From: Acidobacteriota bacterium
GTDB lineage: Bacteria; Acidobacteriota; Terriglobia; Bryobacterales; Bryobacteraceae
Reading direction: 5' to 3'
Assembly: GCA_016870915.1 (NCBI GenBank)
Contig: VFZY01000012.1
Location: 1 to 50,430, forward strand
Length of the DNA: 50,430 nucleotides
Below, piece after piece: positions 27,949 through 31,607 of this stretch. Both the position numbers and the translations under genes were made by a program. Numbering within the stretch: the stretch's first letter is position 1; every line of letters starts with the position of its first letter. Under the pieces are notes generated by a model. It saw only the letters and a list, made by a program, of their open reading frames with translations, did not search any database and was not told where the DNA came from.

Positions 27949-28473
27949 ATGTCAGTTGAAGGAAAGACAGTCGCTTTGCTGGTGGACAACATCTACCAGG
28001 AGATGGAAGTGTGGGTGCCTTTGTACCGGCTGCGGGAAGCGGGTGTGCGCGTGGTGACCTTGGGTGCGGCGGCCGGGACGACATACACCAGCAAGCTGGG
28101 GTATCCGGTGGTGGCCGAGAAAGCGTATGACCAGGTGTCCGCGGCGGATTTCGACGGCGTGGTTGTGCCTGGTGGATTCGCGCCGGACCACATCCGGCGG
28201 CATGCGCGGGCGACGCAACTGGTGCACGACCTGGATGCCGCCGGAAAACTGGTTGCGGGGATCTGCCATGCGGGCTGGGTGCTGTGCTCATCCAACCTGC
28301 TGCGGGGGCGGCGTGTAACGTCGTATTTCTCGATCAAGGACGACATGACGAACGCGGGCGGGCTGTGGGAAGACGCCGAGGTGGTGGTGGACCGGAATCT
28401 GGTGACATCGCGGCGGCCGGACGATTTGCCGGCGTTTTGCCGGGCGATGCTCGAAGTGCTGGCGCGGCAGTAA
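27949..28473 (+). CDS. DJ-1/PfpI-family protein
   Basis: 174-aa class I glutamine amidotransferase-like protein. The nucleophile elbow is AGICHAGW with Cys106-His107, and an acidic residue at 18 or 20 (IYQEMEV) fits the family's conserved Glu. The sequence GYPVVAEKAYDQVSAADFDGVVVPGG matches the PfpI/YhbO subgroup, implicated in deglycase/glyoxalase or peptidase activity. Cytoplasmic (no signal). It lies 7 nt after the hydrolase and 6 nt before the ABC ATPase gene, with an AAGGGG ribosome binding site. Confidence 0.9.
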   Translation: MSVEGKTVALLVDNIYQEMEVWVPLYRLREAGVRVVTLGAAAGTTYTSKLGYPVVAEKAYDQVSAADFDGVVVPGGFAPDHIRRHARATQLVHDLDAAGKLVAGICHAGWVLCSSNLLRGRRVTSYFSIKDDMTNAGGLWEDAEVVVDRNLVTSRRPDDLPAFCRAMLEVLARQ

Positions 28474-28479
28474 CGGCAG

Positions 28480-29403
28480 ATGCAACCGGTGATTTCGGTG
28501 CGCGGACTGCGCAAGGCTTATGGGACGTTCGAGGCTGTGCGAGGGATCGAGTTCGAGGTGCGGGAGGGGGAGGTGTTCGGGCTGTTGGGTCCGAACGGGG
28601 CGGGCAAGACAAGCACGGTGGAGATTCTGGAGGGGCTGCGGCCGCGATCAGCGGGTGAGGTGACGGTGCTGGGGTACGACCCGGGCGTTGATGTGCGGGC
28701 GTTGAAGGACCGGATTGGGGTGTGTTTGCAAGCGACGAACCTGCCGGAGAAGATCAAGGTGAGCGAAGCGCTGGCGCTGTTCGCAGCGTTCTATTCGCGA
28801 AATACCGATCAGAACAAGCTGATTGACCGGTTGCAGCTTGGGGACAAGAAGGATGCGTTCTATTCGACGCTTTCCGGTGGACAGAAGCAGCGGGTGGCGA
28901 TTGCACTGGCGCTGGTGAACAGCCCGAAGCTGGCGTTTTTCGACGAGCCGACGACGGGGCTGGATCCGCAGGTTCGGCTTGAGATCCACGGTTTGATTTC
29001 CGAGTTGCGGGCGTCGAAGACGACGACGCTGCTGACGACGCACTACATCGAAGAAGCGGAACGACTGTGCGACCGCGTGGCGATCATGGACGAGGGGCGA
29101 ATCATCGCGATGGGCACGCCTCGCGAGATTCAGCAGAGCACGCTGGGGCACACGATGATCGAGATTTCAACGGAGCGCCCGCTGCCCGATGGCGCGCTGC
29201 CCGAGTTGATGGGAGCGTCCGAGATGGTGGTGACTGGGGACCGCAAGGAACTGCGGATGGCATCGGCTGAGCCGGCGCGGGCGATTGTGGAACTTGTGAA
29301 ATGGATCGATCAGGCAGGGGTCGGGCTGGCGGATATCCACATGAAACGGCCGACGCTTGAGGATGCGTTCATCAAGCTCACCGGGAAGAGCTTGCGGGAT
29401 TGA
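28480..29403 (+). CDS. ABC-2-type exporter ATPase
   Basis: 307-aa ATP-binding subunit. Walker A GPNGAGKTST near 40-49, signature LSGGQKQR near 133-140, Walker B LAFFDEPTTGLDP near 154-166, and switch His in TTHYIEEAE. A C-terminal extension of about 80 residues is typical of DrrA/CcmA-type drug or lipid exporters. Its TGA overlaps the ATG of the permease-amidohydrolase fusion (TGATG), the permease being its obvious partner. Confidence 0.94.
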   Translation: MQPVISVRGLRKAYGTFEAVRGIEFEVREGEVFGLLGPNGAGKTSTVEILEGLRPRSAGEVTVLGYDPGVDVRALKDRIGVCLQATNLPEKIKVSEALALFAAFYSRNTDQNKLIDRLQLGDKKDAFYSTLSGGQKQRVAIALALVNSPKLAFFDEPTTGLDPQVRLEIHGLISELRASKTTTLLTTHYIEEAERLCDRVAIMDEGRIIAMGTPREIQQSTLGHTMIEISTERPLPDGALPELMGASEMVVTGDRKELRMASAEPARAIVELVKWIDQAGVGLADIHMKRPTLEDAFIKLTGKSLRD

Positions 29404-31607
29404 TGATGAACGCATACCTGGCGCATATCGTCATCAGTTTCAAAATCGCCTGGCGCGACCGGATGGTTCTGTTCTTCAACTACGCCTTTCCGCTGATTTT
29501 CTTCTTCATGTTCGCCCAGATGTTCAAGGCGGAACAGGGCGGCGCGATTGTGCAGGTGGTGGCAAGTGTGCTGTGCATCGGTGTGCTGGGGAACGGCTTT
29601 TTCGGCGGTGGATTGCGGGCGGTGCTGGACCGTGAGGCGAACATTCTGCGGCGTTTCAAGGTAGCGCCCATCTCACCGGCGCCGATTCTGGTGTCGTCGA
29701 TGGCGGTGGGGCTGATCAACTATCTGCCATCGGCCCTGATGATGGTTCTGCTGGCGCATTTGCTTTACGGAATGCCGATTCCGGAACAGTGGCCTTCGCT
29801 GCTGTTGTTCCTGGTGCTGGGTGCGACGGCGTTCCGGGCGATAGGACTGATCATCGCTTCGGTGGCGAACTCGATGGGGGAGAGCCAGATCATCATTCAG
29901 ACGCTGTATTTCCCGATGCTGCTGTTGAGCGGGGCGACGATTCCGGTGATGGTGTTTCCGGACTGGCTGCAGATTGTCTCGCAGTTCATTCCCGCAACCT
30001 ATCTGTTCGGGGGCGTGCAGGCGATTCTGCTGCGCGGAGAGACGTTGGCGGCCAACTGGACGGCCGCGGGCGCGCTGCTGCTGACGATCCTGCTGTGCAC
30101 GTTCATTTCGATCAAGCTATTCCGGTGGGAGAAGGAAGAAAAGATCAAGGCGAGCGCGAAGTTGTGGCTGGTGGCGGTGCTGGCTCCGTTTCTGGCGATT
30201 GGGATGTATCAGGCGCAGGCGAAGAGCAACATCGCCAAATCGAAGCAGTTGTATCGCGAGATGCGGCGGGATCACAAGTTTCTGATTCGAGATGCGCGCA
30301 TCTTCGTGGGCGATGGGCGTGTGCTTGAAACGGGAACGGTGTTTGTAGCGAACGGGCGAATCGTGGCGATTCACGCGGGCCATGGGCCGGATCCGGAGAC
30401 GCTGAAAGCGGAGGTGATTGAGGCGGCGGGCAAGACGCTGCTGCCCGGGTTGATCGATGTGCATGTGCATTTGGGCGCGCCGGGAGGCGTGTTCGAGAAG
30501 GTGGAAGACTACCAGAAGCCGGGGTTGATGGAACGGAATCTGGCGGCGTATCTGTATGCGGGTGTGACCACGGTGAAGAGCGTGGGCGACATGATGACGA
30601 CGCTGGGGCCGGCGCGGGAGCGGGTGCTTTCGGGCGAGTATCTGGGGGCTGACTTGCAGATGACGGGTCCGCTGTTCACGGCCGAAGGCGGGCATGGGAC
30701 GGAGTACTTTAAGGGCGTTCCGGCGGCGCTGCGGGAGAGGATGGTGCGAGAGTTCACGCGGTTGCCGAAGACCGTGGAGGAGGCCAGGGCGCAGGTGAGG
30801 GAGTTGAAGGCGCAGGGAGTGGATGGAATCAAGGTGGTGTTGGACGCGGGGGCGGCGCCGGCGGTGTACAACCGAATGGATACGGCACTGCTATCGGCGA
30901 TTGCGGCTGAAGGGGCCTCGTTGAGGCTGCCGGTGGTGTCGCACACGGGGGATGCCCATGATGTGGCGGATGCGGTGGCGGCGGGCGTGAGCGGGGTGGA
31001 GCACGGGGCACAGAGAGACCGTTTGAGCGACGCGCTGCTGGCGGAAATGAAGCGGAAGGGCGTGGCGTACGACCCGACGTTAAGCGTACTGGAGGCGTTT
31101 TCCGTGCTGCGCGGGGGCGGAACGGGGCCGATGTTCGAGGGGTCGCTGGTGCAGCAGGTGGCGTACCCGGGGTTGATTCAGAATACGAAGAAGGCGTTTG
31201 CGGCGGCGGAGTTTCAGAAAGGGTTGCAGCCCATCAAGGACTATCCGCTGGACCTGAAGCTGGCGATGGAGAATCTGAAGCGTGCGCATGAGGCGGGTGT
31301 GGTGTTGACGGCAGGGACGGATTCGGGGAATTTCCTGCTGCCGCACGGGGCGGCGATTCATCGCGAATTGCAGTTGTGGGTGCGCGCCGGGGTTCCGGCG
31401 GGGGCGGCGCTGAAGGCAGCCACGTTTGAGAACGCGCGCTTGTTGGGGCTGGAGCACCGGATTGGGGCGATCCGCGAGGGACTGGAGGCGACGATGCTGC
31501 TGGTGGATGGGAATCCGCTGGCCGAGATCGCGGCGACGGAGCGGATTTCCATGGTGATGTTCAAGGGAGAGCGGGTGAACCGGGCCGATCTGTTTGAACA
31601 GAAATAG
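29403..31607 (+). CDS. Fusion of an ABC-2 permease with a metal-dependent amidohydrolase
   Basis: 734 aa in one uninterrupted frame. Residues 1-245 are a complete ABC-2 permease: an N-terminal helix, six membrane spans, and the family stretch FPMLLLSGATIPVMVFPDWLQ near 175-195. A further hydrophobic segment (about 252-272, LWLVAVLAPFLAIGMYQAQA) would bring the chain to the periplasmic side. Residues about 295-734 are an imidazolonepropionase/prolidase-like amidohydrolase with His354-x-His356, Lys477, His514, His534 and Asp640 as metal and catalytic residues. The set is complete, so the domain should be active. The ATPase is encoded immediately upstream. Substrate unknown; hydrolysis of an exported amide or dipeptide is one possibility. 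ATG at 29403 is used; a TTG lies one codon earlier. Confidence 0.9.
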   Translation: MMNAYLAHIVISFKIAWRDRMVLFFNYAFPLIFFFMFAQMFKAEQGGAIVQVVASVLCIGVLGNGFFGGGLRAVLDREANILRRFKVAPISPAPILVSSMAVGLINYLPSALMMVLLAHLLYGMPIPEQWPSLLLFLVLGATAFRAIGLIIASVANSMGESQIIIQTLYFPMLLLSGATIPVMVFPDWLQIVSQFIPATYLFGGVQAILLRGETLAANWTAAGALLLTILLCTFISIKLFRWEKEEKIKASAKLWLVAVLAPFLAIGMYQAQAKSNIAKSKQLYREMRRDHKFLIRDARIFVGDGRVLETGTVFVANGRIVAIHAGHGPDPETLKAEVIEAAGKTLLPGLIDVHVHLGAPGGVFEKVEDYQKPGLMERNLAAYLYAGVTTVKSVGDMMTTLGPARERVLSGEYLGADLQMTGPLFTAEGGHGTEYFKGVPAALRERMVREFTRLPKTVEEARAQVRELKAQGVDGIKVVLDAGAAPAVYNRMDTALLSAIAAEGASLRLPVVSHTGDAHDVADAVAAGVSGVEHGAQRDRLSDALLAEMKRKGVAYDPTLSVLEAFSVLRGGGTGPMFEGSLVQQVAYPGLIQNTKKAFAAAEFQKGLQPIKDYPLDLKLAMENLKRAHEAGVVLTAGTDSGNFLLPHGAAIHRELQLWVRAGVPAGAALKAATFENARLLGLEHRIGAIREGLEATMLLVDGNPLAEIAATERISMVMFKGERVNRADLFEQK

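Follow-up and report, generated by a model that had tools for sequence, protein, structure and literature searches.

A single reading frame on a contig from an Acidobacteriota bacterium (family Bryobacteraceae) raises the question of whether a membrane exporter can carry a hydrolase of its own, and what that enzyme would do there. The window, which is the whole 50,430-nucleotide stretch of contig VFZY01000012.1 that was analysed, holds at 29403..31607 (+ strand) a gene for a 734-aa protein in which an ABC-2 permease, a seventh membrane span and an amidohydrolase follow one another, as judged from the open reading frame, Pfam and full-length relatives. The sequence-only reading of the locus had proposed that the extra span places the enzyme in the periplasm, at the exit of a channel driven by the ATPase encoded just upstream, and that export is coupled there with hydrolysis of the cargo.

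The gene, its partner and its enzyme

The frame from 29403 to 31607 has 734 codons and no internal stop, and it ends in a TAG at 31605-31607. It starts with the ATG at 29403 or the one at 29406; for most homologues, the alignment begins at residue 2. ABC2_membrane (PF01061) matches aa 12-209 with 81.3 bits (curated cut-off 26.9) and Amidohydro_1 (PF01979) matches aa 345-725 with 92.3 bits (curated cut-off 25), so the single frame described earlier as joining a permease to an amidohydrolase is confirmed. The Pfam matches are limited to two ABC2 and two Amidohydro families, with no C39 peptidase domain among them. As for the search for the same domain fusion that was advised earlier, full-length fusions occur in three named records at 49-56% identity, and a whole-protein search found both parts in one frame in 17 of 36 relatives from the window's family (the permease part alone was found in genome G026). 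Given these relatives, neither of the two outcomes named beforehand as fatal, a missed stop or frameshift and a fusion confined to one genome, is the case. There is a negligible probability that two genes were joined by an assembly error or a missed stop. Nothing in the window points to either, although draft assemblies make up most of the genomes compared and a frameshift lies within the enzyme part of one member (L094). An amidohydrolase-derived tail stands behind the permease in 122 of the 124 family genomes from which the gene was extracted, including some of only 1-4 contigs (G576, G577, G008, G624 and G497), and we reject an artefact because relatives carry the same fusion. The fusion is real. 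Four plasmid records match at E 1e-20, each over the enzyme part only.

The ATPase gene noted just upstream is there, at 28480..29403 (+ strand; ABC_tran 100 bits). It encodes a DrrA-like ABC ATPase of 307 aa, the partner of the permease, and its stop overlaps the ATG of the fusion by one base, at 29403. A homologue of this ATPase ends at most 60 bases from the start of the fusion at 119 of the 120 family loci whose upstream sequence is 960 bases or longer (three duplicates included); the sole exception, L016, has its start behind a run of N. The ATPase-permease pair is like that of DrrAB-type ABC-2 exporters, and among transporter families drrA and drrB score highest on the two parts. However, DrrA (TIGR01188) gives 256 bits on the ATPase against a cut-off of 312, DrrB (TIGR01247) gives 59 bits on the permease part against a cut-off of 223, and the window's permease also differs by its seventh span and its attached enzyme. 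With both scores below their cut-offs, filing the transporter parts as DrrA or DrrB was ruled out.

Directly upstream of the ATPase gene, Pfam identifies a DJ-1/PfpI-family gene (27949..28473, + strand), which has homologues at 36 of the 74 family loci whose upstream sequence is 1600 bases or longer. When the neighbours at 79 of 80 family loci were clustered (L148 was dropped by the gene caller, a crude one, and some of the clusters are antisense ORFs), no frequent neighbour appeared other than the ATPase and DJ-1/PfpI genes, and no cargo gene was conserved. In the window, the other neighbours are a sulfatase, a beta-lactamase-like gene and the DJ-1/PfpI gene, none of which names a cargo. A downstream TonB receptor was considered as a partner and ruled out, being present at 0 of the 72 family loci with room for it.

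The amidohydrolase domain spans aa 291-734 (30273..31604, + strand; Amidohydro_1). Alignment with family members places its ligands, all on the + strand, at H354 and H356 of the HxH motif (30462..30470), K477, the predicted carboxylated bridging lysine (30831..30833), H514 (30942..30944), H534 (31002..31004) and D640, a metal ligand or catalytic aspartate (31320..31322). The HxH/K/H/H/D set is thus as intact in the window's copy as had been claimed, and the subtype-I set HHKHHD is complete. The nearest solved structures by sequence are 2qs8 (the best, E 6.5e-27), 9l6p, 9l2t and 3mtw. The family and the six-ligand set are shared with the Xaa-Pro dipeptidase 2qs8, the arginine carboxypeptidase Cc2672 (3mtw), ochratoxinase (4c5y) and BwBSH, all of which we take, from reference titles and recall, to be COG1228-type enzymes; unlike in the window's fusion, no permease is seen in those entries. 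On the Xaa-Pro dipeptidase model NF051886, the domain scores 166 bits against a cut-off of 500; this assignment is ruled out, and no substrate can be assigned because of that score. In BwBSH, a homologous bile salt hydrolase, replacing any one of the six ligands by alanine abolished activity, according to the available part of the source (PMC13081902), and the available text on ochratoxinase describes ligands of the same kind as holding two metals (PMC11342369). Because its ligands match the set mutated in the one and the two-metal kind of the other, the window's copy is most likely an active hydrolase.

The seventh span and the side of the membrane

The permease core, aa 1-250 (29403..30152, + strand), has six spans by ABC2_membrane and by the hydropathy of 118 aligned family sequences, and the seventh span follows at aa 254-272 (30162..30218, + strand; hydropathy peak 1.56). 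Hydropathy peaks in the 118 sequences lie at aa 22-40, 49-67, 100-118, 133-151, 163-181, 222-240 and 254-272, these seven being 12 overlapping segments merged by eye, and the six-span permease with an extra membrane segment stands as first described. Between the span and the enzyme, loop counts give a charged juxtamembrane stretch at aa 273-290 (30219..30272, + strand).

What does not stand is the idea that the extra span was brought in to place the enzyme, since most unfused relatives read have one. By eye, a C-terminal stretch like the seventh span is present in the unfused permeases L023-L025, L035, L037, L077 and L080; it is absent from L078 and L079, which end before that point and are taken as cases of loss. 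Because unfused relatives already have the span, it was not added with the enzyme, and its acquisition together with the enzyme as one part is ruled out.

From the hydropathy and the N-terminal hydrophobic stretches of unfused relatives, we infer that the seventh span would put the enzyme outside, on the periplasmic side. The alternative is a cytoplasmic domain, with a seventh peak that does not cross the membrane or a core of another topology, so that cargo would be processed before export, as in peptidase-containing ABC transporters. K/R counts (loop limits set by hand) are low in aa 40-52, 120-132 and 178-222, whereas aa 1-22, 68-98 and 238-254 are rich in these residues. This pattern argues against a cytoplasmic domain, as do the clear seventh peak in the 118-sequence average and the signal- or anchor-like N-terminal stretches seen by eye on related unfused enzymes. 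What fits it are the K/R of 7.6 in aa 272-300, past the peak, and the zero K/R in aa 150-163, a loop expected inside; on balance, we consider a cytoplasmic enzyme improbable. Because K/R is high on either flank of the seventh span (5.8 before it, in aa 238-254, and 7.6 after it), the charge pattern is ambiguous under the positive-inside rule. A full-protein structure model from four sequences has confidence too low to place the domain (pLDDT 49, pTM 0.36), and too low for the helix that it draws up to aa 287 to be relied on.

Distribution and origins of the fusion

The fusion is widespread in the window's family. The permease part is found at E 1e-20 or better in 160 of 237 family genomes, belonging to 47 of 76 genera.

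The gene was extracted from 124 of the 160, from permease-bearing loci in two family searches plus 80 loci picked among the matches listed; because these 80 were picked by hand, with shortened frames deliberately included, the rates given here are not unbiased. Among the 124 are 63 genes with all six ligands, 54 with ligand loss, one frameshifted (L094), four cut by a contig end and two without the domain (L022 and L093). L052, L059, L065 and L067 were left out as copies, and L060, L069 and L104, duplicates of L001-L003, were removed from the counts (127 records with duplicates). In L094 (genome G469), the amidohydrolase part runs on in another frame, through a frameshift or an assembly error. 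One of the three named records with the fusion, L003, titled Nevskia soli, is probably a mislabelled bin, because in a quick tree no distance separates its permease part from the one in G494, a genome of the window's family.

Fusions were looked for within one phylum. In a sample of 396 genomes, 13 match the permease part with an E value of 1e-30 or lower, the window's included. One of the other 12 (G435, of family f66, in a different class from the window's) is fused to an amidohydrolase and then CIA30, for 905 aa in total; three (L038, L044 and L045) have another C-terminal extension of ~280 aa, which gave no Pfam match in either of the two scanned; and the remaining eight stop soon past the last span or after short tails. 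In a second f66 genome, G660, the fusion runs up to the contig end. A histidine kinase and a LytTR regulator follow the f66 fusion, and because the same genes follow the unfused permease of G656, this fusion looks like an enzyme inserted into an existing operon.

The more careful of the permease trees unites f66 with three unfused permeases from its own class (96/87). A single clade of fused permeases is rejected by the AU test (p-AU 7.2e-8, for a constraint group named after the quick tree that included the nested unfused L035), which rules out a single origin for both fusions on this tree. The fusion seems to have arisen at least twice, although, with lower probability, one old fusion may have been lost many times. 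The enzyme tree places the domains of the window's family in one clade (100/100) and f66 apart, with all exporter-linked enzymes lying to the same side of a poorly supported branch (83/58; present in 81% of 200 bootstrap trees). This tree leaves out the long-branch unfused L171, L172, L195 and L196 and 12 family rows, and in it the complete genes of L199 and L200 replace L168, L169, L189 and L190; an earlier, larger enzyme tree had two long-branch unfused rows, omitted later, beside f66 with support 30. A separate observation concerns L035/L207 (G316), an unfused permease of another family that is nested in the fused clade and was probably transferred horizontally, losing its enzyme domain.

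Enzymes of this type are also encoded separately beside ABC-2 exporters. In family f16 (G653 and G661), two separate amidohydrolases, at 44-49% to the f66 domain, stand in a run with an ATPase and an ABC-2 permease. The run in G661 (the L199/L200 pair) has, by Pfam, ThiF-like (below cut-off), YcaO, nitroreductase and CIA30 genes, followed by a weak-TPR protein, the two amidohydrolases, a 299-aa protein without a Pfam match, the ABC ATPase and the ABC-2 permease; by eye, the gene order in G653 is the same. In G095 (family f25), an amidohydrolase-CIA30 gene is followed by an ATPase gene and then an ABC-2 permease gene, with gaps of at most 20 bases each. The separate f16 and f25 enzymes have, by eye, hydrophobic N-terminal stretches like signals or anchors. 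Counting the f66 fusion, the enzyme type is recurrently linked to ABC-2 exporters, and this recurrence favours a link between export and hydrolysis.

The G653/G661 genes form a RiPP-like cluster with tandem amidohydrolases, and the gene set in G661 resembles azole-forming RiPP clusters. This set alone hints at a peptide cargo, and the class in which it occurs is not that of the window.

Loss of the ligands and the role of the domain

Not every member can be catalytic: 54 of the 117 scorable family members (63 intact plus 54 ligand-loss) lack ligands, and catalysis throughout the family is ruled out. Fifteen of the 54 are at least 700 aa long, L050 reaches 690 aa, L016 has a complete enzyme part (it seems short only since its start sits behind the N run) and 37 are shortened. 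Full-length examples include L013, with H534 changed to Y, and L087, with six of six positions changed. More than half of aa 421-555, a part of the barrel (30663..31067, + strand), is missing in 32 of the 54. The flanking parts are retained: by block, the frequency of the commonest residue in aa 291-350 is 0.53-0.78 in the short set (39 rows, L094 and L016 included) versus 0.50-0.86 in the 63 intact members, and in aa 641-734 it is somewhat lower, 0.41-0.81 versus 0.57-0.78. The non-ligand residue H431 is H in 63/63 intact members and in 3/15 full-length ligand-loss members, and N643 is invariant in the 63.

In ligand-loss pairs (20, hand-chosen neighbours), dN/dS is 0.05-0.25 for the domain versus 0.01-0.19 for the permease part. 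The domain of intact members gives 0.07-0.24 in a set of 14 pairs, of which four were saturated and left uncounted. This comparison still classed L094 as ligand loss, whereas the count of 54 and the losses on the tree leave it out. From these ratios, change in the dead domain is somewhat faster than in the permease, yet far from free. If losses are irreversible, the quick permease tree needs 22 of them, or 16 when branches below 80 or below 90 are collapsed and 11 when those below 95 are. The frame and the sandwich are kept despite repeated ligand loss. With 54 of 117 members lacking ligands, whatever maintains the gene does not depend on hydrolysis.

One way to accommodate these data is a scavenging or detoxifying hydrolase of the periplasm that is merely anchored by the permease and has a substrate different from the transporter's cargo. 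The frequent unfused amidohydrolases of the same type in the same genomes and the lack of a conserved cargo gene next to the fusion would suit such an enzyme, but two fusions and two ABC-2 neighbourhoods exceed what anchoring needs, and the ligand-loss members would anchor nothing useful; we regard it as unlikely. The domain might instead be mainly structural, dimerising or gating the permease, with the catalysis of intact members a relic of the donor enzyme. This is possible, if doubtful. The 11-22 ligand losses on the permease tree, the sandwich kept at near-intact conservation and dN/dS well below 1 all point that way, as does ochratoxinase, a solved relative that is a homo-octamer according to the available text of PMC11342369. 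However, the 63 of 117 members that keep six ligands, with H431 and N643 invariant among them, are hard to explain without selection for catalysis.

Evenly balanced, in our estimate, is the proposition that the locus encodes an exporter with a hydrolase at its exit and a further, non-catalytic role for the domain, a role that alone is left in many lineages. A two-gene ABC exporter (ATPase plus permease) would carry a COG1228-type amidohydrolase on the far side of the seventh span, and in the intact forms, the window's included, the tethered enzyme would trim the cargo as it exits the channel. The cargo would most likely be a small peptide or an N-acyl amino acid. The sandwich and remaining barrel would have a second job without catalysis, likeliest as a clamp on the permease dimer, or else as a docking site for cargo or a partner; this job alone would remain in many lineages. 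The coupling of export with cargo hydrolysis that was first proposed survives in part: the recurrent ABC-2 linkage favours it and the ligand set is complete in the window's copy, but hydrolysis can be only part of the function, since purifying selection still acts on the domain although ligands are missing in 54 of 117 members.

Among the literature matches listed, in a search of limited coverage, no ABC-2 permease-amidohydrolase fusion was found. Permease/M1-aminopeptidase fusions exist as annotation names, and a literature search, also of limited coverage, found no paper with both terms. In known exporters with a C39 peptidase domain, this domain is N-terminal and cytoplasmic. The peptidase-containing ABC transporters are the closest parallel in that a built-in hydrolase couples processing to export (in the available parts of PMC6959990 and PMC7018657), and like them the window's fusion has a hydrolase built into the exporter. 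Their peptidase is unrelated, and their membrane and ATPase domains share one protein with it (available part of PMC6959990), whereas the window's fusion has a C-terminal metalloenzyme and an ATPase as a separate protein. The words amidohydrolase, ABC-2, fused and permease all occur in the available text of PMC5478893.

Our broadest suggestion is a tentative one that leans slightly towards doubt: the locus may represent an unrecognised exporter class with an exit-tethered hydrolase, perhaps serving peptide natural products. Exporter-linked amidohydrolases would have given rise to it on two or more occasions within one phylum, and the enzyme would then have been converted repeatedly into a non-catalytic subunit. 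Coupling of export with hydrolysis is known for leader-cleaving ABC transporters, and an ABC-2 exporter with a metalloenzyme tail is not among the literature matches listed. Because the family has intact, point-changed and barrel-deleted natural versions, the enzyme's contribution to the exporter is directly testable. The family is an unusually dense record of catalysis lost while the enzyme domain is kept, and if the suggestion is true, it would amount to a natural series in which an enzyme turned into a scaffold more than ten times in parallel, always in the same covalently fixed setting.
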